DNA of 64,000 nucleotides, from NCBI GenBank assembly GCA_017535925.1, contig JAFXTD010000055.1, forward strand, positions 62,001-126,000, read 5' to 3'. Positions 38,572-53,572 of this stretch are shown piece by piece. The stretch is from Selenomonadaceae bacterium. Its GTDB lineage: Bacteria > Bacillota > Negativicutes > Selenomonadales > Selenomonadaceae. How positions within the stretch are numbered: the first letter of the stretch is position 1; each line of letters starts with the position of its first letter. Position numbers and translations under genes: made by a program. The notes beneath the pieces are model-generated. The model was not told the origin of the DNA. It saw only the letters and a program-made list of their open reading frames with translations, and did not search any database.

Positions 38572-38606
38572 CAGCTAACCACTAACAGCTAACAGCTAAC
38601 AGCTAA
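38572..38606 (-). repeat. TTAGCTG heptanucleotide repeat (5 units) ending the permease-kinase gene
   Basis: Read on the plus strand the units are CAGCTAA, CCACTAA and three more CAGCTAA. The TAG stop of the permease-kinase gene (38603-38605) is in the last unit. The unit is the same as at 18944. Confidence 0.85.
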
Positions 38607-41503
38607 TTTAAAACCTCCGTTAAAGTTTCAATCATTTTTTGAACGTCAAGAGGTTTGGCAATGTGGCTGTTCATGCCCGCCTCCTTTGCCGCCTGTATGT
38701 CTTCCGTGAAGGCGTTCGCCGTCATTGCGATTATCGGAATGTGCGCAAGTTTCAAATTCGGAAGTGAACGAATTGCTTTCGTTGCCTCGTAGCCGTTCAT
38801 GACCGGCATTTGAACATCCATTAAAATCGCGTCGAAGTCGCCGGGCTTGCTTGCCGAAATTTTTTCGACGGCAACCTGTCCGTTTTCTGCCGTGTCCAAA
38901 GAAAATCCGAACTCCGTCAAAATCAGCGAGGCTATTTCGCGATTGACCTCGTTGTCCTCGACAAGAAGAAGTTTTATCTTGCTGAAGTCAATTTCACGAT
39001 TGGAATCTGTCGTTTCGACTTCGACCTCTTCGGGCTCGTCGACAATCGGGAAGTCAACGCGAACGATAAATTCCGTGCCCTTGCCCAGTTCGCTCTCAAC
39101 GTCAATCGTGCCGCCCATAAGTTCGACGATACTCTTTGTGATTGACATGCCCAAGCCCGTGCCTTGAATGTTGCTGACGGAGCGGTCGCGTTCGTAGGCG
39201 GCGAAAACTTTTTTTGCAAATTCGGGCGTCATGCCCATGCCGGTATCCTTCACGCGCAATTCGTAAGAACCTCTTTCATCGTTGCCGCCGATTTGCCGCA
39301 AAGTCACGGTGACGGAGCCGCCTTCGGGCGTGAATTTGTAAGCGTTGCTGATTAAATTCAAGAGGACACGATTGAGGCGCGGCGTATCGCACAGAACGGT
39401 TTTGTTCATGACGTGGTCGAAATTGACTTCGAACTTCAAGCCCTTGTTTTCCATTTGCGTCGCGAATAAATCTTTGACCTCGTTCAAAGCTTTGACGAGA
39501 TTTGATTCTTGAGGGTCGAGTTCCATTTTGCCGGACTCAATGCGGCTCATGTCGAGGATGTCGTTTATCAAAGAGAGCAGGTGATTGTTCGAAGCCTCTA
39601 TCTTGTCGAGATAATCTTTTGTCCTCTGCGGAAGTCCCGGCTCCTTCTTGATAAGATTCGTGTAGCCGATAATCGCGTTCATTGGCGTGCGAATGTCGTG
39701 GCTCATGTTCGAGAGGAAAGTCGACTTCGCCTTGTTGCTCCGTTCCGCTTGAACTTTTTCACGCTCCATATTTTTTTCGCGATTCATCATCAAGTTGTAA
39801 ATGTTGAACATGATAAACAGCGCGATTGTTATCAAAATCATTTGCATGAGGTTGTGGCGCGTCAAAGAGTCGCTCACGATTTTCATTTGCCCTTGCAGAT
39901 AATATTGCGAATCTGCTTTTTCTCTGTCGGAAGGAGGGATGCCGTGTTCGTTGAGCTCTTCGGTGTAATATTCTCGCAAGTTGCCCAAGACCGTTTGAGC
40001 TGCGTCGCTTGTTGCCTCACGAACCCAAAGCATCGACGTGAAGAAAATTAAAAACAGCAAAGCTATCCAAGAGATTGTCGACTTGCCGAAACGTCGTTGC
40101 TCGTTGTCGCGCTGAAAGATATATCGGAAGAAGACGAAGCCGAGAATGCTCCAACAAATCAGAATCAAATAACTTTCGGTCGTCATTGCGCTGACTGTCC
40201 AGACGTTGGGCACCATGAAATACAGGAAGAAAATCAACGAGACGACGCAGCCGATTGTTCCGGTGATTTGCGGAAGGCTCTTGCCGACCGTCCGCGCAGT
40301 GATAATCGTGACGAGCGATGTGTAAGTGTAATCAATCGTTGCGCCGATTGTGTTCACGTCGACAATCCAAGCAATCGCCGTTCGTCCGAGAAAAGGTATC
40401 GGCAAGCTTAACAACATGATAAACAGGACGGCGTTCGTGGGCGTATGATTTTCATTGAGCTTGCCGAACCAAGCGGGAAGCAAATCGTCACGAGTCAAAG
40501 CGTAAATCAAACGGCTTGCGGCGATATAATTTCCGACAAGACCGGTTATGACACCGCACACGCAAGTTACCGCCAAAATTATCAAGCCCGTATCGCCCAA
40601 AAAGAAATGCACCGCGTGAAACGTAGGCAGCCCTTCAAGTCCCTCGTAACTGTCCAAGTTGTTAATGTATTCAGCCCAATTCGCGCAACCTTGAGGCAAA
40701 GTCGAAACGGCAAGAAGCGTGAGGAACGTATAAGCCAAAGCCGCCGCGACTACTGCGCAGAATAAAATTGCAAAAGTTTTTTTCACGGAGAACTTGAAAC
40801 CTTCCGCCGATTGCGAAACGGATTCGAAGCCGACAAAAGCCCACGGCGCAAGCACGACAATTCCGAAAATCGCCGCGAACGAATCATTGGTATCGGGAGG
40901 CAAGGCGGGCTCAATGTCAAAAATATTCACGCCGCTTGACACGACCGAGACGATACCGATTAAGACGCCGCCGAATAAAATTATCGCCGCGACGGTCTGA
41001 ACCCAAGCCGCCAATTTGCCTCCGTACATGCAGACGACTCCGAAAATCCACAGCGCGCCCAAGCTCAACAGAACTTCGCCGAACCAAATATCAAAGCCGG
41101 CGATTGTATAATGAAAGCCGAATTGAAAAGTATCGCCCAAAAATTTTCTGAAGATAATCGGCAGGGCGGTTGCGTTCGCCCAAGTGATTGCGATATAAAC
41201 CAAAATCAAAAACCACGAACTCAAGAAGCCGTGGTCATAGCCGAGAGTTTTTTTTGCGTAGGAATAAGTGCCGCCGGCGTCAGGATATTTATTCATCATG
41301 AAGTGGTAGTTGTAGCCGATAATCAACATGATGATTCCGCCGACCGCCATGCCCAGTGCCGTGCCGAGCGGTCCGCCTATCGGCAAGAAAGTTGTGCCCG
41401 GCATGACGAATGCGCCCCAGCCGACCGCGCAACCGAATGACAATGCCCAAACGTTCAGCGGCGATAAATAAGGTTTAAGTTTTGTGTTTTCTGCAGTATC
41501 CAT
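38603..41503 (-). CDS. Amino-acid permease - histidine kinase - receiver fusion
   Basis: A 966-residue inner-membrane protein. Residues about 10-480 are a full amino acid/polyamine (APC) permease (FGCAVGWGAFVMPGTT, YPDAGGTYSYAKKTLG, FVGFESVSQSAEGF). Two more membrane helices frame a periplasmic loop (about 485-570), then come a HisKA domain with H in NMSHDIRTPMNAI near residue 600, an HATPase domain (LISNAYKFTPEGG, GTGLGMSITKSI) and a receiver with the phospho-Asp in AILMDVQMPVMNG. This suggests a sensor whose input is transport or binding of an amino acid, as in CbrA with its SLC5 part. GGTG precedes the ATG by eight bases. No response regulator gene is adjacent. Confidence 0.88.
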   Translation of the reverse strand: MDTAENTKLKPYLSPLNVWALSFGCAVGWGAFVMPGTTFLPIGGPLGTALGMAVGGIIMLIIGYNYHFMMNKYPDAGGTYSYAKKTLGYDHGFLSSWFLILVYIAITWANATALPIIFRKFLGDTFQFGFHYTIAGFDIWFGEVLLSLGALWIFGVVCMYGGKLAAWVQTVAAIILFGGVLIGIVSVVSSGVNIFDIEPALPPDTNDSFAAIFGIVVLAPWAFVGFESVSQSAEGFKFSVKKTFAILFCAVVAAALAYTFLTLLAVSTLPQGCANWAEYINNLDSYEGLEGLPTFHAVHFFLGDTGLIILAVTCVCGVITGLVGNYIAASRLIYALTRDDLLPAWFGKLNENHTPTNAVLFIMLLSLPIPFLGRTAIAWIVDVNTIGATIDYTYTSLVTIITARTVGKSLPQITGTIGCVVSLIFFLYFMVPNVWTVSAMTTESYLILICWSILGFVFFRYIFQRDNEQRRFGKSTISWIALLFLIFFTSMLWVREATSDAAQTVLGNLREYYTEELNEHGIPPSDREKADSQYYLQGQMKIVSDSLTRHNLMQMILITIALFIMFNIYNLMMNREKNMEREKVQAERSNKAKSTFLSNMSHDIRTPMNAIIGYTNLIKKEPGLPQRTKDYLDKIEASNNHLLSLINDILDMSRIESGKMELDPQESNLVKALNEVKDLFATQMENKGLKFEVNFDHVMNKTVLCDTPRLNRVLLNLISNAYKFTPEGGSVTVTLRQIGGNDERGSYELRVKDTGMGMTPEFAKKVFAAYERDRSVSNIQGTGLGMSITKSIVELMGGTIDVESELGKGTEFIVRVDFPIVDEPEEVEVETTDSNREIDFSKIKLLLVEDNEVNREIASLILTEFGFSLDTAENGQVAVEKISASKPGDFDAILMDVQMPVMNGYEATKAIRSLPNLKLAHIPIIAMTANAFTEDIQAAKEAGMNSHIAKPLDVQKMIETLTEVLN

Positions 41504-41541
41504 AAAGAGGGCACCGCTCTCCTTTAAATTATTTTCAAACA

Positions 41542-41569
41542 ATTATACACGAAACACGGTTAAAGTAAA
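41542..41569 (-). promoter_or_regulatory. Promoter of the permease-kinase gene
   Basis: On the minus strand TTTACT (41564-41569), 16 bases and a perfect TATAAT (41542-41547), about 38 bases before the ATG. Confidence 0.55.
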
Positions 41570-45741: not shown

Positions 45742-45767
45742 AATCTCGGCGACATAAAAATTTTCTT

Positions 45768-45802
45768 CCCGTCAACGCGGCGGGATTTTTTTATGTTATA
45801 AT
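45768..45802 (+). terminator. pyk terminator fused to an extended -10 promoter
   Basis: CCCGTC and GGCGGG (45768-45784) pair and are followed by seven T. Three bases later comes TGTTATAAT (45794-45802), an extended -10 for the first condensation-domain gene, with no clear -35. The same module recurs at 47114. Confidence 0.7.
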
Positions 45803-45854: not shown

Positions 45855-47093
45855 ATGAAATACTACCCGTTGCGACCGATTCAACGTTGGCTGGTCGATA
45901 CTCACTTCAACAAGGCAAAATCGACAATGATGAATATCGGCGGGCTGCTCAAACTTTCGGCGTCAATAGACATGAATCATTTGGCAAGCGCGATAAATTA
46001 TGTTCTGGAAAATCACGACATCTTCCGTTGCAGATTCGTCTTTCATCCCGAAACAAGCGACCTTTGCCAGACTTTCGACAGCGAACTTGAAAAAGTTTTT
46101 GTGGAAGAAATGAGCGAGGCTCAATTTAAAAAGCACATGGACAAAATGCGCGAGCCGTATTATTTAATCGACAAGCCGCTTTATCGAATTTATTTGATGC
46201 AGACGCCGCGAGCGAAGTACATTTACGCCGATTTTTATCATGCGATAATGGACGGCGTGTCGATAGTGTATTTGTTTTGGCGCGAAGTCGATGCGGCGTA
46301 TCGCGGACGGAAAAAGGCAAGAGCTTTGAGTTACGCCGAATACGTCGAAGAGGAAGCGGCAATCCCCGCCGAAAACCTCGCCGAAGGTCAAGCGTATTGG
46401 CAGAAAATTATTTCTTCCTTCGACAGAAAAAAACATTTGCCGCCGACGAAAATCGAAGGCGACACGAAATGGGCTAAAGGCGAATTCCATTACGAATTTA
46501 AAAACTTCATGGAAGAATTTTTCAGGGCGACGCACCTCGACGAGAACAATTACTTCATGGGCGCGGCAATGCTGACTTTGGCGAAAATCACCGGCTCCGG
46601 CGAATCGCTCATAAGTTGGACACACAACGGACGCATGACAATGCCCGAACGTCGCTTGATGGGTTTGATGTTGGAACAAATTCCTTGCGCTTGGGATTTT
46701 CGCGAAAACATTTCAATCGGCGAATTTTTAAATCGTCTCAATGGTCAAACGCGAATCGGCATGAAGTATCGCAAAAGTCTCGGCACGATTTACGATTCGG
46801 GTATCGAAGGCGATTTGGTGACTTTCATTTTCCAAAAGAATCTTTACGATAACATTGTTTTGGCGGACACGCTTGCCTTGCCGATTTACCTGCCGCCCAA
46901 TGAAATTTCTGCAGCGGAAAATGCGCTCGATACAGAAGTTTGCGCGACGGAGACCGGCAAATATAAATTGAATCTCAACTATGACGCAAGCCGTTATTCC
47001 GAAGCAGATATGAATCACTTCGCCGAGACGATGAATGAAATTTTACTTGAGATGCGAGACGCGAACAAAAAGTTTTCCGAAATTCTCCGTTGA
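45855..47093 (+). CDS. Stand-alone condensation-domain protein 1
   Basis: A 412-residue cytoplasmic protein made up of one condensation domain, the acyl- or peptidyl-transfer fold of non-ribosomal peptide synthetases. The catalytic motif is FYHAIMDGVS, with His129 and Asp133-Gly134; the first His of the usual HHxxxDG is Tyr. The early PLRPIQRWLVDTHF and the late floor-loop region with NGRMTMPERRLMGLML fit the fold. There is no carrier or adenylation domain in it or nearby. A closely related copy follows. Such enzymes may acylate a lipid, sugar or amine; the substrate is unknown. AGGAGGGAA precedes the ATG. Confidence 0.8.
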   Translation: MKYYPLRPIQRWLVDTHFNKAKSTMMNIGGLLKLSASIDMNHLASAINYVLENHDIFRCRFVFHPETSDLCQTFDSELEKVFVEEMSEAQFKKHMDKMREPYYLIDKPLYRIYLMQTPRAKYIYADFYHAIMDGVSIVYLFWREVDAAYRGRKKARALSYAEYVEEEAAIPAENLAEGQAYWQKIISSFDRKKHLPPTKIEGDTKWAKGEFHYEFKNFMEEFFRATHLDENNYFMGAAMLTLAKITGSGESLISWTHNGRMTMPERRLMGLMLEQIPCAWDFRENISIGEFLNRLNGQTRIGMKYRKSLGTIYDSGIEGDLVTFIFQKNLYDNIVLADTLALPIYLPPNEISAAENALDTEVCATETGKYKLNLNYDASRYSEADMNHFAETMNEILLEMRDANKKFSEILR

Positions 47094-47113
47094 AAAATTT
47101 AAAAATTTTTCGT

Positions 47114-47148
47114 CCCGTCAAAGCGGCGGGATTTTTTTATGCTATAAT
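47114..47148 (+). terminator. Terminator fused to extended -10 promoter between the two condensation genes
   Basis: CCCGTC and GGCGGG (47114-47130) pair and are followed by seven T. TGCTATAAT (47140-47148) follows at once as an extended -10. So the second copy has its own promoter, and the duplication copied the promoter module too. Confidence 0.7.
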
Positions 47149-47194
47149 GTTTGAGTCAAAGAAATTTGTCACAGAAGTACAAGGAGGAAAATTT

Positions 47195-48436
47195 ATGAAG
47201 TATTATCCGTTGCGCCCGATTCAGCGTTGGTTAATTGATACCCATTTCAACAAGGCAAAATCGACAATGATGAATATCGGCGGGCTGTTCGAACTTCCGC
47301 CGGAATTAGACCTTCAACGTTTGGCAGAGGCGATTAACGAAGTTTTAAACAGGCACGACATTTTCCGTTGCAGATTGGCTTTTCACCCCGAAACGAGCGA
47401 ACTTTGTCAAACTTTCGACGGTGAGATAATGCCCGTCGTAATCGAGGAATGGACAGACGAAGAATTTGAGACGATACAAAAATATTTAATCGAACCTTAC
47501 GACTTGATAGGCAAGCCGCTTTACCGAGCTTATATTTTCAAGACGCCCTCCGCGAATTATTTTCACGTCGATTTTTATCACGCGGTAATGGACGGCGTGG
47601 CAGCCTCGATTCTGTTTGGTCGTGAAATCGACAAAGAATATCGCGGGCTGAAAAATTCGCGCAAGGCGTTGAGTTATGCCGAATACGTCGAAGAAGAAGC
47701 AAATACTCCGCCCGAAGATCTTTCCGAAGGTCACGACTACTGGAAAAAAATGTTGTCGGCTTTCGACAAGAAAAAACATTTGCCGCCCATTGAAGTTGAA
47801 GGCGTGCCGGCATGGACGCAAGGCAAATTTGAATGCACGCTTAAAAATATTCCGAAAAATTTTTTCACGGACACCCGCACAGACGAAAACAATTACTTCA
47901 TGGGCGCGGCGATGTTGGCGTTGGCGAAGATCACCGGCTCGAAAGAATCTATCATGAGCTGGATACACAACGGGCGAATGAACATGCGCGAACGCCGCTT
48001 GATGGGTTTGATGTTGGAACAAATTCCCTGCGCTTGGGATTTTCACGAAGACATTTCGATTGGCGAATTCTTGAATAAATTATCCGAGCAAACGAAAACT
48101 TCCATGACTTACCGCAAAAGTTTGGATTGGGTTTACAACAGCGGGCTTGAAGATGATTGCGTGAGCTTTATCTTCCAGAAAGACCTTCATACCGGTGTGG
48201 CATTGAATGGTATGGTCGCTAAAGCCGTTTACCTGCCGCCCAATGAAATTTCCGCCGTTGAAAACGCGCTTGACATTGAGGTTGAAGCGAACGACGAGGA
48301 CTCTTATGACTTGTCCTTGGATTATGACGCAAGCCGCTACTCTGAAGACGAAATGCGCCGCTTCGCCGAAATGATGAATGAAATTTTAATTGCAATGAAA
48401 AATCCCGACACGAGAGTTTCCGCGCTTTTGACTTGA
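47195..48436 (+). CDS. Stand-alone condensation-domain protein 2
   Basis: A 413-residue close paralogue of the protein before it. Long identical blocks run throughout (YYPLRPIQRWL, HFNKAKSTMMNIGGL, HDIFRCR, RRLMGLMLEQIPCAWDF, VYLPPNEIS). The catalytic motif FYHAVMDGVA again has His129 with Tyr before it. The copies differ most in the lid region and near residues 170-240, which line the acceptor tunnels, so they may have different substrates or act as a pair. I use the ATG at 47195, since AAGGAGG precedes it; the frame is open 35 codons upstream. The exporter gene follows. Confidence 0.8.
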   Translation: MKYYPLRPIQRWLIDTHFNKAKSTMMNIGGLFELPPELDLQRLAEAINEVLNRHDIFRCRLAFHPETSELCQTFDGEIMPVVIEEWTDEEFETIQKYLIEPYDLIGKPLYRAYIFKTPSANYFHVDFYHAVMDGVAASILFGREIDKEYRGLKNSRKALSYAEYVEEEANTPPEDLSEGHDYWKKMLSAFDKKKHLPPIEVEGVPAWTQGKFECTLKNIPKNFFTDTRTDENNYFMGAAMLALAKITGSKESIMSWIHNGRMNMRERRLMGLMLEQIPCAWDFHEDISIGEFLNKLSEQTKTSMTYRKSLDWVYNSGLEDDCVSFIFQKDLHTGVALNGMVAKAVYLPPNEISAVENALDIEVEANDEDSYDLSLDYDASRYSEDEMRRFAEMMNEILIAMKNPDTRVSALLT

Positions 48437-48449
48437 ACCGGAAAAGAAG

Positions 48450-49616
48450 ATCCGCAAAGGCTCAAAAAAATTTTTCGTTGCAAACGCCGCACTGTTTTTG
48501 GGAGGTTTGGTCACGTTCGGAGCGGAGTACTGCGTTCAACCGATAATCCCGGTCTTCACGAAAACTTTCGGGCTTGAACCGGCAACGGCAAGTTTGGCGG
48601 TGTCGTTCGGGACGGCGGGCATGGCGTGTTCGATGATTTTAATCGCCTTGTTCGCAAAAATTTTACCGCGAAAAATAATCATGACGATTGCTTTGATCGC
48701 CGCCTCGTTGTCGGCGATTTTAATTTCGGTCAGCGAAAATTTCGGCTTGATACTCGCGTTGCGTTTCGTTCAAGGAATATTGTTGGCGGGCTTCCCGGCA
48801 ATGGCGGTCGCCTATATCAACGAGGAATTTGATTCAAAAATTATCGGAGCGGTCACGGGAATTTATATTGCGGGCACTTCGGTCGGCGGGCTTGTCGGAC
48901 GAATCCTCTTGAGCTTTTTGACGGACGTATTAAATTGGCGAATCGCTTTGGGAATTTTGGGCGCGATTTATTTTTTAATGGGCATTGCATTTTTATTCAC
49001 GTTGCCCAAGCCTCAACACCGCGTCGAAAAAATTTCTGAAGGTGCACGGCTCGGAGACTTCGCAAAACTTTTCCGCAACGCAAATTTGATGAGCCTTTAC
49101 GTCGTCGCGGCGGCAGTCATGGGCGTGTTCGTCTGCACTTACAATTTTATCAGCTACGTGTTGCTCGCGCCGCCTCACAACCTCTCGCAAACGCAAATCG
49201 GTTTGATATATTTTCTGTTCTTGCTCGGAACGGCAGCCTCGACGATAATGGGGCGTCTCGCAGACAAATTTGGCAACGGAAAAATTTTGCTCGCGTCAAT
49301 CGTCTCTATGTTCGCGGGCGTCGGCTTGACCTGCGCGGCTCCTCTCGTGATAAAACTTTCGGGCGTCGGGCTCGTGACTTACGGTTTTTTCGGAGCACAC
49401 AGCTCGGCGGCGTCTTGGGTCGGCAAGCTCGACGATTCCGATAAAGCTCGGCTCTCGGCGGGCTACATGTTCGTTTACTACGTCGGCGCAAGTGTTATCG
49501 GCTCGGCGGGCGGAAAATTTTTAACCGCGTTTGATTGGAGCGGCGTCGCGCTTTTCATGACGACAATACTTTTAATCGCGTTGAGCATGTGCCTTCGACT
49601 GTTGCATAAGGCTTAA
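48450..49616 (+). CDS. MFS transporter (exporter type), start codon unclear
   Basis: A 12-helix major facilitator of about 388 residues. The start FFVANAALFLGGLVTFGAEY resembles TM1 of the YnfM/AraJ-like exporters, and LGLEPATASLAVS-like spacing, RFVQGILLAGFPAMAVAY and the loop GRLADKFGN are typical. The family-like N-terminus extends upstream of the first TTG (48498) to an ATC at 48450 with no ATG or GTG between. TTG 48498 would cut TM1 short, and CTG 48492 is the only other candidate. It follows the second condensation gene by 13 bases and probably exports its product. Confidence 0.7.
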   Translation: MRKGSKKFFVANAALFLGGLVTFGAEYCVQPIIPVFTKTFGLEPATASLAVSFGTAGMACSMILIALFAKILPRKIIMTIALIAASLSAILISVSENFGLILALRFVQGILLAGFPAMAVAYINEEFDSKIIGAVTGIYIAGTSVGGLVGRILLSFLTDVLNWRIALGILGAIYFLMGIAFLFTLPKPQHRVEKISEGARLGDFAKLFRNANLMSLYVVAAAVMGVFVCTYNFISYVLLAPPHNLSQTQIGLIYFLFLLGTAASTIMGRLADKFGNGKILLASIVSMFAGVGLTCAAPLVIKLSGVGLVTYGFFGAHSSAASWVGKLDDSDKARLSAGYMFVYYVGASVIGSAGGKFLTAFDWSGVALFMTTILLIALSMCLRLLHKA

Positions 49617-49627
49617 AAATTTTTGAC

Positions 49628-49657
49628 GGCGTTTCTTGATTGAGACGCCTCTTTTTT
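49628..49657 (+). terminator. Terminator after the MFS gene
   Basis: GGCGTTTC and GAGACGCC pair with a short loop and are followed by six T. The loop contains the -35 of the next promoter. Confidence 0.75.
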
Positions 49658-49767: not shown

Positions 49768-50838
49768 ATGGAAAGGGAACTGATACGCTTGGAAAACGTT
49801 GCCAAGTCTTTTGGAAATTTGCTCGTGCTCGACGAAATAGATTTGTCGATACGCGAAAGCGAATTCATTACGCTGTTGGGTCCGTCGGGTTGCGGCAAGA
49901 CGACAATGCTGCGAATTATCGGCGGCTTCGAAACGCCGGACACGGGGCGCGTGATTTTCGACGGCAAAGACATTACAAACCTTCCGCCGAATCGAAGACC
50001 GATTAACACGGTTTTTCAAAAGTATTCTCTCTTTTCACACATGAACGTTGAGGAAAATATCGCCTTCGGTCCGAAAATCGCGGGCAAGTCCTCCGATTAC
50101 ATTCGCGACAAAATTAAATACGCCCTCAAGCTTGTCAACCTCGAAGGCTACGAAAAACACGACGTGACAAAATTGAGCGGCGGGCAACAACAGCGAATTG
50201 CAATCGCCCGCGCCGTCGTCAATGAACCGAAAGTTCTTTTGCTTGACGAGCCGTTGAGCGCTTTGGATTTAAAGTTGCGTCGGAACATGCGCCGCGAACT
50301 TGTCCGAATCAACAAGGAGACCGGCATAACTTTTATCTTCGTGACGCACGACCAAGAAGAGGCTCTGTCGATGAGCGACCGCGTCGTCGTCATGAATCAA
50401 GGTTACATTCAGCAAGTCGGCACGCCCGAAAATGTTTACAACGAGCCGGAAAATGCATTCGTTGCGGATTTTATCGGCGACAGCAACATAATCGACGGCG
50501 TTATGGTTCGTGATAAGGTCGTTCGGATTTTCGGAAGAGAATATCCTTGCGTCGACGAGGGCTTCCCCGCAGAGTGCCCCGTTGATGTTCAGATTCGCCC
50601 CGAAGACATTAAGCTTGCCGCGCCGAGTGAAGGTGCTTTCAACGGCGTGGTGACTCGCGTGGTTTTTTGGGGCATGTCGTATGATATAAACGTCGAGGCT
50701 GACGGCTTCGAGTGGCTTGTTCAATCGACGACGGGACGCACTGTCGGCGAGGAGGTAAGCTTGCACGTTGCGCCCGAAAATATTCAAATCATGAGCAAAC
50801 CTCAATCCGAAGATGAGGAGGTTGCTCATGATGTTTAA
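49768..50838 (+). CDS. potA: Spermidine/putrescine ABC transporter ATPase
   Basis: A 356-residue ATPase that powers polyamine import. Walker A is GPSGCGKTT (near residue 38), the signature is KLSGGQQQRIAIARA, Walker B is VLLLDEPLSALD and the switch His is in FVTHDQEEAL. The Q-loop FQKYSLFSHMNV is typical of PotA. The C-terminal 110 residues form the TOBE regulatory domain (VDVQIRPEDIKL). AGAAGGGTTGCTGGGAG precedes the ATG. It overlaps potB by 11 bases, so the genes form one operon potABCD. Confidence 0.93.
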   Translation: MERELIRLENVAKSFGNLLVLDEIDLSIRESEFITLLGPSGCGKTTMLRIIGGFETPDTGRVIFDGKDITNLPPNRRPINTVFQKYSLFSHMNVEENIAFGPKIAGKSSDYIRDKIKYALKLVNLEGYEKHDVTKLSGGQQQRIAIARAVVNEPKVLLLDEPLSALDLKLRRNMRRELVRINKETGITFIFVTHDQEEALSMSDRVVVMNQGYIQQVGTPENVYNEPENAFVADFIGDSNIIDGVMVRDKVVRIFGREYPCVDEGFPAECPVDVQIRPEDIKLAAPSEGAFNGVVTRVVFWGMSYDINVEADGFEWLVQSTTGRTVGEEVSLHVAPENIQIMSKPQSEDEEVAHDV

Positions 50839-51655
50839 TCTTAACACGAGAAATTTTTTGCTGACGCCTTTTTTAATTTGGGCGGGGCTTTTTATTTTTA
50901 TCCCGCTGGTTTTTATCGTCTGGTACGGCGTGACAGATTACGACGGAAATTTTTCATTGACGAACGTCGGCTTGATATTTGAGCGCGGCTACCTCGACGC
51001 ATTGGAACTTTCAATCGCTTTGGCATTAATCAGCACGGTAATTTGTTTGCTGCTTGCCTACCCGCTGTGCTTAATCTTGACGGAACGCCGGCGCGACAAC
51101 TCGACGATAATTTCATTGCTGTTTATCTTGCCGCTGTGGATGAATTCGCTCTTGTCGACGATGGCTTGGCAAACGATTTTGGAAGGCAACGGCATAATCA
51201 ATCAATTCATGCGGCTGTTGAGCTTGCCCGACCTGCACATGATAAACACGGAAGGCGCAATCGTCTTGGGCATGGTCTACAATTATTTGCCTTACATGGT
51301 TTTGCCGCTGTACATTTCCCTTACGAAAATCGACAAGAGAATTTTGGAGGCGGCGCGGGATTTGGGCGCGAACTCTTGGCAGACGTTCACGAAAATAATT
51401 TTGCCGCTGACAATCCCCGGAGCAATCAGCGGAATCACGATGGTTTTTATTCCCGCGCTCACGACCTTTGTAATCAGTGCATTGCTCGGCGGCGGCAAGT
51501 TGCTTTTAATCGGCAACATAATCGAACAGGAATTTACTTTCCAATACGATTGGCACGTGGGCTGCGCGTTGAGCGTGATTCTCATGGTTTTTATCGTGCT
51601 GAACATGTTGCTGACTGCGGCATTTGACACAAGTCACGAGGAGGAGGATTTTTGA
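50828..51655 (+). CDS. potB: Spermidine/putrescine ABC permease PotB
   Basis: A 275-residue inner-membrane permease with six helices. The cytoplasmic EAA loop reads LEAARDLGANSWQTFTKIILPLTIPG, the docking site for PotA. The N-terminus LTPFLIWAGLFIFIPLVFIV is typical. The ATG at 50828 has GGAGG six bases before it and lies inside the end of potA; a second ATG follows directly. Its stop shares one base with the potC start (TGATG). Confidence 0.92.
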   Translation: MMFNLNTRNFLLTPFLIWAGLFIFIPLVFIVWYGVTDYDGNFSLTNVGLIFERGYLDALELSIALALISTVICLLLAYPLCLILTERRRDNSTIISLLFILPLWMNSLLSTMAWQTILEGNGIINQFMRLLSLPDLHMINTEGAIVLGMVYNYLPYMVLPLYISLTKIDKRILEAARDLGANSWQTFTKIILPLTIPGAISGITMVFIPALTTFVISALLGGGKLLLIGNIIEQEFTFQYDWHVGCALSVILMVFIVLNMLLTAAFDTSHEEEDF

Positions 51656-52443
51656 TGAACTATCTCAAAAAAATTTACCTCGCGACGATATTTTTATTCC
51701 TCTACGCACCGATAGCCGTTTTAATCGCGCAGTCCTTCAACGCCAGCCGTTATCGCGGACATTGGACGGGCGTCACGCTCGATTGGTACACGAAACTTTT
51801 CAACGACACGAGGATAGCCGACGCACTTTCCAACACGCTGTCAATCGGATTATTATCGGCGGGCATTGCGACTCTTTTGGGCTTGATAACCTGCGTTGCA
51901 ATGAAAGAGCTTTCGCGCAAGTGGCGGGCAACCTTCTTAAGCATAACGAACATTCCGATTTTGAACGCTGACATCGTGACGGGAATATCGCTCATGCTTT
52001 TGTTCATGGGCATGGGTCTCAAGCTCGGCTACGTGTCGATTTTGTTGGCGCATATCGTCTTCAACGTGCCGTATGTTATCCTGTGCATAATGCCGCAGCT
52101 TATAGCTTTGGACAAAAGTTTTTACGAGGCGGCGTTGGATTTGGGAGCTACCCCTTTCAAGGCGTTTACGAGTGTCGTCTTGCCCGAATTGCGTCCGAGT
52201 ATCTTCGCGGGATTTCTTTTGGCGTTCACAATGTCTGCTGACGATTTCATAATCACGCACTTCACGAAGGGAGCGGGTGTCGACACTTTGACGACGGCGA
52301 TTTACGCGCAGTTGAAGTTGGGCATTCACCCCGAAATTTACGCGCTGTCGACTTTGGTATTTTTCTTTGTTTTGATATTTGTTTTACTGTTTGCGATAAA
52401 TCGTCGCAAGCTTAAGAAATATGAGGAGGTTTTAAACAATTAG
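51655..52443 (+). CDS. potC: Spermidine/putrescine ABC permease PotC
   Basis: A 262-residue inner-membrane permease, the partner of PotB, with six helices. The EAA loop is YEAALDLGATPFKAFTSVVLPELRPS. The N-terminal YAPIAVLIAQSFNAS and TMSADDFIITHF segments are typical of PotC. It starts one base inside the potB stop. Its last codons, AAC AAT TAG, come from a heptanucleotide repeat, so the natural end has been replaced or extended (VLNN). Confidence 0.92.
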   Translation: MNYLKKIYLATIFLFLYAPIAVLIAQSFNASRYRGHWTGVTLDWYTKLFNDTRIADALSNTLSIGLLSAGIATLLGLITCVAMKELSRKWRATFLSITNIPILNADIVTGISLMLLFMGMGLKLGYVSILLAHIVFNVPYVILCIMPQLIALDKSFYEAALDLGATPFKAFTSVVLPELRPSIFAGFLLAFTMSADDFIITHFTKGAGVDTLTTAIYAQLKLGIHPEIYALSTLVFFFVLIFVLLFAINRRKLKKYEEVLNN

Positions 52444-52466
52444 GAATTAGGAATTGGGAATTGGGA
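52439..52466 (+). repeat. ATTAGGA/ATTGGGA heptanucleotide repeat (4 units) ending potC
   Basis: Two ATTAGGA and two ATTGGGA units. The first supplies the potC stop TAG (52441-52443). The order of units is the same as at the end of the rhodanese gene. Confidence 0.85.
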
Positions 52467-52510
52467 ATGAAAAAACCGGTCCCTTGTCCCTTAATAAGGA
52501 GGTATTTTGA

Positions 52511-53572
52511 ATGAACAAATTTAAAATTCTTGCGCTCTTGCTGGTTAGTCTTTTGGCATTCGGAGTTGCGGGTTGCGGCGGCGGAGACAAAAAAGAAAAC
52601 GTCGTCTACGTCTACAGCTGGGGTGATTATCTTGACCCCGAAGTCTTGAAGATTTTCGAAAAGGAAACGGGCATTCACGTTATCCTCGACGAATTCGACA
52701 CGAACGAAAGCATGTATCCTCGCGTGGCGGAAGGTGCGGTTCATTACGACGTTATTTGCCCGTCCGATTACATGATTCAAAAACTTATCGACAACGATTT
52801 GATTCAGCCGCTTGACTTCACGAAGTTGCCTGATGCAAAAAAATATATCGGCGAGGAATTTTACAAGCAAGCCGAATCCTTCGACCCCGGCAACAAATAT
52901 TCCGTGCCCTATTGCTGGGGAACCGTCGGCATAATCTACGACAAGACGAAAGTCACCGAGCCCGTCGACAGCTGGAATATTCTTTGGAACGACAAATACA
53001 CGGGACAAATTTTAATGCAAGACTCCGCACGCGACGCAATGATGATTCCGCTCAAGCTCATGGGCAAAAGCATGAACGAGACCGACAAAGATGTTTTGGC
53101 TCAAGCTCAAGCAATGTTGAAGAAACAAAAGCCGCTTGTCCAAGCTTACGTTATCGACGAGGTCAAAGAGAAGCTTATCAATTCGGAAGCGGCAATGGGC
53201 GTTGTCTTCAGCGGCGAGGCTCTGATTATCTTGCAACAAAATCCGAACATGGCGTTTGCAATCCCGAAGGAAGGCACGAACTTTTGGATTGACGGTTGGG
53301 TTATCACGAAGGACGCGCAAAACGTCGACAACGCGCATAAATTTATCGACTTCATGTGCCGCCCCGATATCGCCGTCATGAATTTCGATTATCTGGGCTA
53401 CTCGACGCCGAACACCGCCGTTAAAGATTTGGAGGAGGACGAGGAAATTAAAAATTCGCCGATAGCTTTCCCCTCACCCGAAGTCTACAAAGGTCAAGAG
53501 ACTTACAAATATCTCGGCAACCAAATGGACGAGTACTATAACAATCTGTGGATGCAAGTTAAGGTTGATTGA
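52511..53572 (+). CDS. potD: Spermidine/putrescine-binding lipoprotein PotD
   Basis: A 353-residue surface-anchored binding protein with lipobox VAGC (Cys22). The family start VVYVYSWGDYLDPEVLKIFEKETG and YDVICPSDYMIQKL, and the ligand-lining YCWGTVGIIYDK and DARDAMMIPL-like segments (here DSARDAMMIPLKLMG) are present. It delivers polyamine to PotBC. A 67-base gap with a heptanucleotide repeat separates it from potC; AAGGAGG precedes the ATG. Its stop overlaps the glycosylase start by one base. Confidence 0.93.
   Translation: MNKFKILALLLVSLLAFGVAGCGGGDKKENVVYVYSWGDYLDPEVLKIFEKETGIHVILDEFDTNESMYPRVAEGAVHYDVICPSDYMIQKLIDNDLIQPLDFTKLPDAKKYIGEEFYKQAESFDPGNKYSVPYCWGTVGIIYDKTKVTEPVDSWNILWNDKYTGQILMQDSARDAMMIPLKLMGKSMNETDKDVLAQAQAMLKKQKPLVQAYVIDEVKEKLINSEAAMGVVFSGEALIILQQNPNMAFAIPKEGTNFWIDGWVITKDAQNVDNAHKFIDFMCRPDIAVMNFDYLGYSTPNTAVKDLEEDEEIKNSPIAFPSPEVYKGQETYKYLGNQMDEYYNNLWMQVKVD

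Follow-up and report, generated by a model that had tools for sequence, protein, structure and literature searches.

The locus described here lies within a stretch of 64,000 nucleotides (nt) of a Selenomonadaceae genome (assembly GCA_017535925.1, contig JAFXTD010000055.1, positions 62,001 to 126,000 of the forward strand), hereafter referred to as the window. It comprises two adjacent genes, C1 and C2, each encoding a protein that resembles a single condensation (C) domain of nonribosomal peptide synthetases (NRPS), followed by a gene for a transporter of the major facilitator superfamily (MFS). In window coordinates, the features are as follows:

45756..45802, + strand: terminator of pyk followed by TATAAT, 5' of C1; copy 1 of a 47-nt direct repeat
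45855..47093, + strand: C1, putative stand-alone condensation-fold acyltransferase of 412 amino acids (aa) (PF00668; 62% identity with C2)
46236..46256, + strand: active-site motif of C1, Y128-H129-A-I-M-D133-G134 (from the sequence and the family alignment)
47102..47148, + strand: terminator of C1 followed by TATAAT, 5' of C2; copy 2 of the 47-nt repeat, 91% identical
47195..48436, + strand: C2, putative stand-alone condensation-fold acyltransferase of 413 aa (PF00668; C-domain fold in the AlphaFold2 model)
47576..47596, + strand: active-site motif of C2, Y128-H129-A-V-M-D133-G134 (from the sequence and the family alignment)
48498..49616, + strand: MFS transporter, MFS_1, similar to Bcr/CflA/CraA efflux proteins (Pfam 8.9e-44; NCBIfam efflux models match below their cut-offs)
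49628..49649, + strand: terminator-like hairpin 3' of the MFS gene, between it and potABCD
49768..53572, + strand: potA, potB, potC and potD, spermidine/putrescine-type ABC importer forming a separate transcription unit (potA and potD by Pfam)

PF00668 (Condensation) is the sole significant Pfam domain in both proteins, scoring 136 bits in C1 (E 1.5e-39) and 144 bits in C2 (E 5.9e-42) against a curated cut-off of 30.6 bits, and the two proteins align over their full length. C2 starts at ATG 47195 behind a good Shine-Dalgarno sequence, AAGGAGG, the listed open reading frame beginning upstream at TTG. The active-site motifs read DFYHAIMDG in C1 and DFYHAVMDG in C2, hence YHxxxDG, in which the catalytic second histidine, the aspartate and the glycine of the canonical HHxxxDG are present and tyrosine replaces the first histidine. 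In C domains, it is the second histidine of this motif that helps an amine or alcohol to attack a thioester. The AlphaFold2 model of C2 (pLDDT 88.7, pTM 0.87) constitutes a complete C domain, matching known C domains with Z scores of 30-34. Its best structural match is the starter C domain of RzmA (Z 34.0, root mean square deviation 3.3, 389 residues aligned), although this lead is small, with many elongation C domains following within about 2 Z units. The first-pass annotation of this DNA, which was made from the sequence alone, had described two stand-alone C-domain proteins with a YHxxxDG motif and an MFS exporter, and this description is borne out in each of its parts, as is, for C2, the C-domain fold for which it had proposed structure prediction. 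The assignment it had named as incompatible with its proposal, membership among the choline or alcohol acetyltransferases, was rejected together with that among wax synthases and PapA proteins, as neither Pfam nor NCBIfam yielded such a match up to E 1.

Close relatives of C2 all belong to uncultured Selenomonadaceae, Selenomonadales or Quinella, mostly of ruminant origin, and a scan for close relatives across about 85,000 species returned Selenomonadaceae/Selenomonadales records only. A family profile, applied to 398 genomes of the phylum, detected full-length members solely in Selenomonadaceae, where 78 of 189 genomes carry the family; distant relatives in phyla beyond that of the host lay outside this search. 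In an alignment of 79 non-redundant members, the catalytic histidine is kept in 77 and both the aspartate and the glycine in all 79, while the first motif position is tyrosine in 78 members and phenylalanine in one. The ratio of nonsynonymous to synonymous substitution rates (dN/dS, NG86) amounts to about 0.23 between C1 and C2, to 0.08 between C2 and its 98% relative, and to 0.16-0.20 for other relatives. Because these ratios are low, the catalytic residues are conserved and the model is a confident, complete C domain, C1 and C2 are a real gene pair under purifying selection. In the phylogenetic tree the family forms one clade, the root of which is not fixed, and C1 and C2 fall into different subclades; a recent tandem duplication is therefore not supported. 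This qualifies the first-pass description of two close tandem paralogues.

The members of the family differ in length. Nearly all proteins of the window's genus measure 410-460 aa, while the frames in other genera extend to about 530-575 aa. The extra N-terminus of the longer members is a STAS domain (PF01740, 8.5e-13), which also exceeds the cut-off of TIGR00377, the model for anti-sigma factor antagonists. Nearly every family member outside the window's genus carries it, the SpoIIAA-type phospho-acceptor serine is present in 24 of 24 such STAS-C sequences, and a Pfam scan found no STAS domain in C1 or C2. In the tree, STAS-C proteins constitute one well-supported subclade, with the STAS-less members outside it, mostly in two groups. 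Judged from these sequences, the family appears to be a Selenomonadaceae-specific condensation family, in most genera with a partner-switching module fused to it and in the window in a bare form.

The source genome (G000; 2.59 Mb, 91% complete) was searched for NRPS components. AcpP, encoded inside a fatty-acid operon, is the only carrier over the cut-off of the PP-binding search; the ACPS search returned AcpS only, and the AMP-binding search five stand-alone acyl-CoA/phenylacetate-type ligases only, CoA denoting coenzyme A. Genome-wide, at this completeness, neither an NRPS carrier, nor an NRPS adenylation (A) domain over the cut-off, nor an Sfp-type phosphopantetheinyl transferase (PPTase) was found, and a hidden NRPS was rejected on these grounds. 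That A domain, carrier and PPTase are missing, as the first-pass annotation had noted for the window, thus holds for the whole genome except for AcpP, AcpS and the CoA-type ligases, and the free-standing carrier that it suggested looking for elsewhere came down to AcpP. A third PF00668 protein of about 606-630 aa is encoded in the same genome (G000:C39:22824-24014, L003); its active-site motif is degraded, its C-terminus gives a weak cyclic-nucleotide-binding-like match, and no related neighbours were seen.

In our favoured reading, C1 and C2 would be free-standing condensation-fold acyltransferases that use an acyl-CoA or acyl-AcpP donor and a free acceptor to form an exported amide or ester, and whose STAS-bearing relatives would be switchable; judging from sequence, we give it about an even chance. 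His129 would serve as the catalytic residue. As donor they would use a thioester, either a small molecule or one bound to a carrier; because no NRPS carrier was found in the genome, acyl-CoA and acyl-AcpP are the most likely candidates. The acyl group would pass to the amine or hydroxyl group of an acceptor that diffuses freely, yielding an amide or ester. In this genome, the product would be exported by the MFS protein made with C2; no terminator was found on the + strand between the two genes. The first-pass annotation had proposed a minimal acyl- or aminoacyl-transfer pathway with an exported product, which is still the best reading in view of the fold, the histidine, the selection, the missing carriers and the recurrent exporters, although the pair represents only the stripped end of a larger family.

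The wider setting of this family becomes apparent from the gene order, which was mapped at 24 STAS-C and 50 STAS-less loci. At 22 of the 24 STAS-C loci, the C gene is followed by a MATE exporter gene, either directly or past an NRPS gene with adenylation, thiolation and condensation domains (A-T-C; AMP-binding, PP-binding, Condensation), and the remaining two lie at contig ends. A SpoIIE-type phosphatase is encoded near 16 of the 24, with the architecture dCache-HAMP-SpoIIE where scanned. The MATE protein of L084 carries a C-terminal HATPase_c_2 domain according to a Pfam scan, and profile comparison (92-99.6% probability) indicates homology between the HATPase tails of three MATE groups, one of them that of the window's genus. 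These tails have mostly kept the DxG box, while the asparagine of the N-box is mostly replaced, and they are shortened in the window's genus. A model of one such protein shows a MATE fold plus an alpha/beta tail, and Foldseek matches it to MATE structures including ClbM. No orthologue of this MATE was found elsewhere in G000, whose own MATE proteins are only 18-23% identical. Within the window's genus, G007 (L064) has retained STAS, SpoIIE and NRPS.

These domains are those of the SpoIIAA/SpoIIAB and RsbV/RsbW partner-switching systems, for which SpoIIE/RsbU, STAS and HATPase domain types are all found adjacent in the STAS-C relatives. Classically, partner switching controls a sigma factor, whereas in these relatives a condensation enzyme carries the fused STAS domain and a MATE protein the fused HATPase, and the window proteins are devoid of both domains. 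It is possible, though on present grounds not probable, that a partner switch has been built into a machine for biosynthesis and export, with STAS on the enzyme, HATPase on the MATE protein and a dCache-SpoIIE phosphatase setting the state under an extracellular signal, and with the window form as a switch-less, carrier-free acyltransferase. In such a scheme, docking of STAS to HATPase would bring the enzyme to the MATE exporter, and the switch would consist of phosphorylation together with SpoIIE. The lineage of the window would lack this switch, its enzyme presumably being constitutive. The fold, motif, conservation, selection, missing carriers, domain fusions and gene order are shown directly by the data, whereas donor, acceptor and product export of C1 and C2, as well as docking and phospho-control in the relatives, are what we infer.

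The A-T-C NRPS genes, which directly follow STAS-C at 11 of the 24 loci, lend themselves to another explanation, namely that C1 and C2 are trans-acting C domains that complement an A-T-C NRPS encoded elsewhere and act on carrier-bound aminoacyl groups, the NRPS having been missed by the assembly or recently lost here. Besides this adjacency, the first ~215 aa of these NRPS (L084:9963-10613 and orthologues) give no Pfam match and show, at hhalign E 2e-4 and 46% probability, a weak resemblance to the C-terminal lobe of C-family proteins, as if the NRPS had had its own C domain cut away, with STAS-C replacing it in trans. Moreover, among 66 genomes of the window's genus, 50 carry the C family, and every one of the 22 genomes possessing assembly-line A domains is among them (Fisher p 6e-4, with no correction for ancestry or completeness). 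Conversely, 28 of the 50 are without an assembly-line A domain, and none of the 50 STAS-less loci has an NRPS gene next to the C gene. Several genomes at least 94% complete possess a C gene with a still conserved catalytic site but no NRPS A domain over the cut-off, as in six of the same genus (G499, G504, G506, G510, G022 and G516; 94-98% complete), and the same combination occurs with STAS-C in G419 (99%), G554 (100%) and G567 (99%). A trans-acting NRPS component therefore appears rather unlikely. Two loci of the window's genus, L052 and L053, feature an NRPS of 2.2-2.7 thousand aa followed by a MATE gene; in L052, a gene for an Sfp-type PPTase-like protein follows, and the NRPS resembles the aureusimine synthetase AusA below the equivalog cut-off.

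Turning to the neighbourhood of the STAS-less genes, MATE lies upstream at 18 of the 50 loci, the MFS gene of the window is present at four (L004, L011, L013 and the window), and tandem C genes occur at six; these contexts were classified only against the references used. The succession of two C genes and an MFS gene, to be traced in related genomes according to the first-pass annotation, accordingly recurs in part: the C-MFS order is the same in L004, L011 and L013, whereas other relatives show STAS-C with MATE, SpoIIE and often an A-T-C NRPS. C1 and C2 look separately transcribed, because each is preceded by a terminator and TATAAT within the 47-nt direct repeat. The potABCD operon raises the possibility that the enzymes N-acylate putrescine, cadaverine or spermidine imported by PotABCD. 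VibH, a free-standing C enzyme, acylates norspermidine, and potABCD is located at most two genes downstream at 24 of the 50 STAS-less loci, among them loci of diverged species in which the upstream flanks have been rearranged. On the other hand, a terminator lies between the MFS gene and potA, the operon is not found beside STAS-C in other genera, and its recurrence is explicable by shared ancestry within one genus, which renders polyamine acylation improbable. The presence of potABCD also suggested a link to the diamine transferase that attaches cadaverine to peptidoglycan, a trait generally known from Selenomonas; this idea was abandoned, as the other Negativicutes families sampled lack the C gene.

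A further set of neighbours suggests modification of surface or lipid components, in which the enzyme would acylate a lipid-linked sugar or an envelope component flipped by a MATE/MOP-type protein. Membrane proteins of the DUF6056 family are encoded near nine of the 24 STAS-C loci and adjoin C genes in L031 and L032, a DPM1-like glycosyltransferase of family GT2 is present in L031, L056, L067 and L068, and an LPG_synthase_C aminoacyl-transferase gene lies between C and MATE in L060. However, none of these genes adjoins C1 or C2 in the window, lipid flipping is not typical of MFS proteins, and the C2 model gives no hint of membrane attachment, so that this explanation is quite improbable for the pair. 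As to the individual loci, DUF6056 proteins recur, paired or single, beside STAS-C/MATE or C genes in L081-L083, L122, L123, L125 and L131 as well as in L031 and L032. In L060 (4544-8181), the C gene is followed by the LPG_synthase_C gene, of the phosphatidylglycerol-lysyltransferase type, and then by the MATE gene, an arrangement that may point to an aminoacyl route dependent on tRNA. Two genes from the C gene of L060, a protein of 1019 aa is encoded that is similar to a 979-aa amino-acid-permease-like protein of the window (38603-41542, - strand), which is apparently fused to a histidine kinase and a receiver.

Several observations weigh against free-standing acyltransferases with an exported product. 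The catalytic histidine has been lost in two members of the family, Gln and Arg taking its place in L058:6563-7828 and L065:7257-8513, the latter gene being located behind an HlyD/peptidase-ABC exporter set. Together with the STAS fusion, which points to a regulatory setting, this loss would fit a non-catalytic binding or regulatory protein with a C fold, but the near-complete retention of His and Asp-Gly and the purifying selection make such a role very unlikely. No acyl-activating gene adjoins C1 or C2 in the window, it is possible that a carrier was missed in G000 given its 91% completeness, and the C gene may serve an NRPS where a genome has one. The kinase activity of the MATE HATPase tails appears doubtful, because the usual N-box asparagine is missing in most members. 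Finally, the listed frame of the window's MFS gene opens at TTG inside the first membrane segment, the open frame extending upstream to about 48432 without a standard start. In comparison with the close relative L004, which has an intact, longer N-terminus, the frame of the first codons is shifted close to a homopolymer run (48432-48500), so that the 5' end of the window's gene is either damaged or misassembled.

Among known systems, VibH (vibriobactin), SgcC5 (C-1027) and CmnI (capreomycin) are single-domain C enzymes with free small-molecule acceptors. SgcC5 and CmnI are close structural matches of the C2 model, the identity amounting to 15-16% for the three enzymes, whose donors are bound to dedicated NRPS carriers; none is known in G000. 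The RzmA starter C domain (PMC7804268) resembles C2 as its top structural match, and starter C domains can use acyl-CoA, but the acceptor of RzmA is an aminoacyl-carrier protein of the same synthetase and its identity to C2 is 11-12%. MATE exporters of NRPS products, such as ClbM and SolL, share the MATE fold and the vicinity of NRPS/C genes, to which the relatives' MATE adds the C-terminal HATPase-like domain.

OaaC of Coprococcus eutactus (PDB 12KH), from the gut fatty-acid-amide cluster that also encodes OaaA and the acyl carrier protein OaaACP, joins acyl-ACP to a free amine to form an amide (PMC13142362). Like C1 and C2, it comes from a gut bacterium, stands free of any assembly line as a condensation protein of about 410-465 aa, and has an altered first motif position (PMC13142362). 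Its motif is DHxxxDS (PMC13142362), whereas that of the C family is YHxxxDG throughout. The OaaC gene is accompanied by genes for a dedicated ligase and ACP (PMC13142362), no counterpart of which occurs in the window, the AMP-binding and carrier matches of the genome lying elsewhere. Its sequence similarity to the family is weak and confined to the N-lobe (38-44 bits), and the accessible part of its description mentions no STAS form (PMC13142362), the STAS fusion being a feature of the Selenomonadaceae relatives. OaaC is the closest system in function, but because of these differences in motif, neighbouring genes and sequence, C1 and C2 are not assigned to the fatty-acid-amide group.

The first-pass statement that no system of this layout had been described needs to be narrowed accordingly, as VibH, SgcC5, CmnI and especially OaaC are free-standing C proteins acting on free amines. 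Of the STAS-C/MATE-HATPase system, no description was found in the open-access literature on STAS, SpoIIE or partner switching in combination with NRPS or condensation domains; the terms nonribosomal and condensation are also absent from the Quinella genome paper.

If the proposed partner switch is correct, signalling domains whose main known role elsewhere is the control of sigma factors would couple a condensation enzyme to its exporter, and this would constitute a new, phosphorylation-based way to switch natural-product synthesis. The window's genus would then represent a natural experiment: here the enzyme would have no switch and would function independently of NRPS carriers, a property useful for enzyme engineering. 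In the human gut, lipids produced by free-standing C enzymes act on host receptors (PMC13142362), and Quinella shows raised abundance in some low-methane sheep (PMC9585023). The product of the family would, in turn, be one secreted by rumen bacteria related to Quinella.

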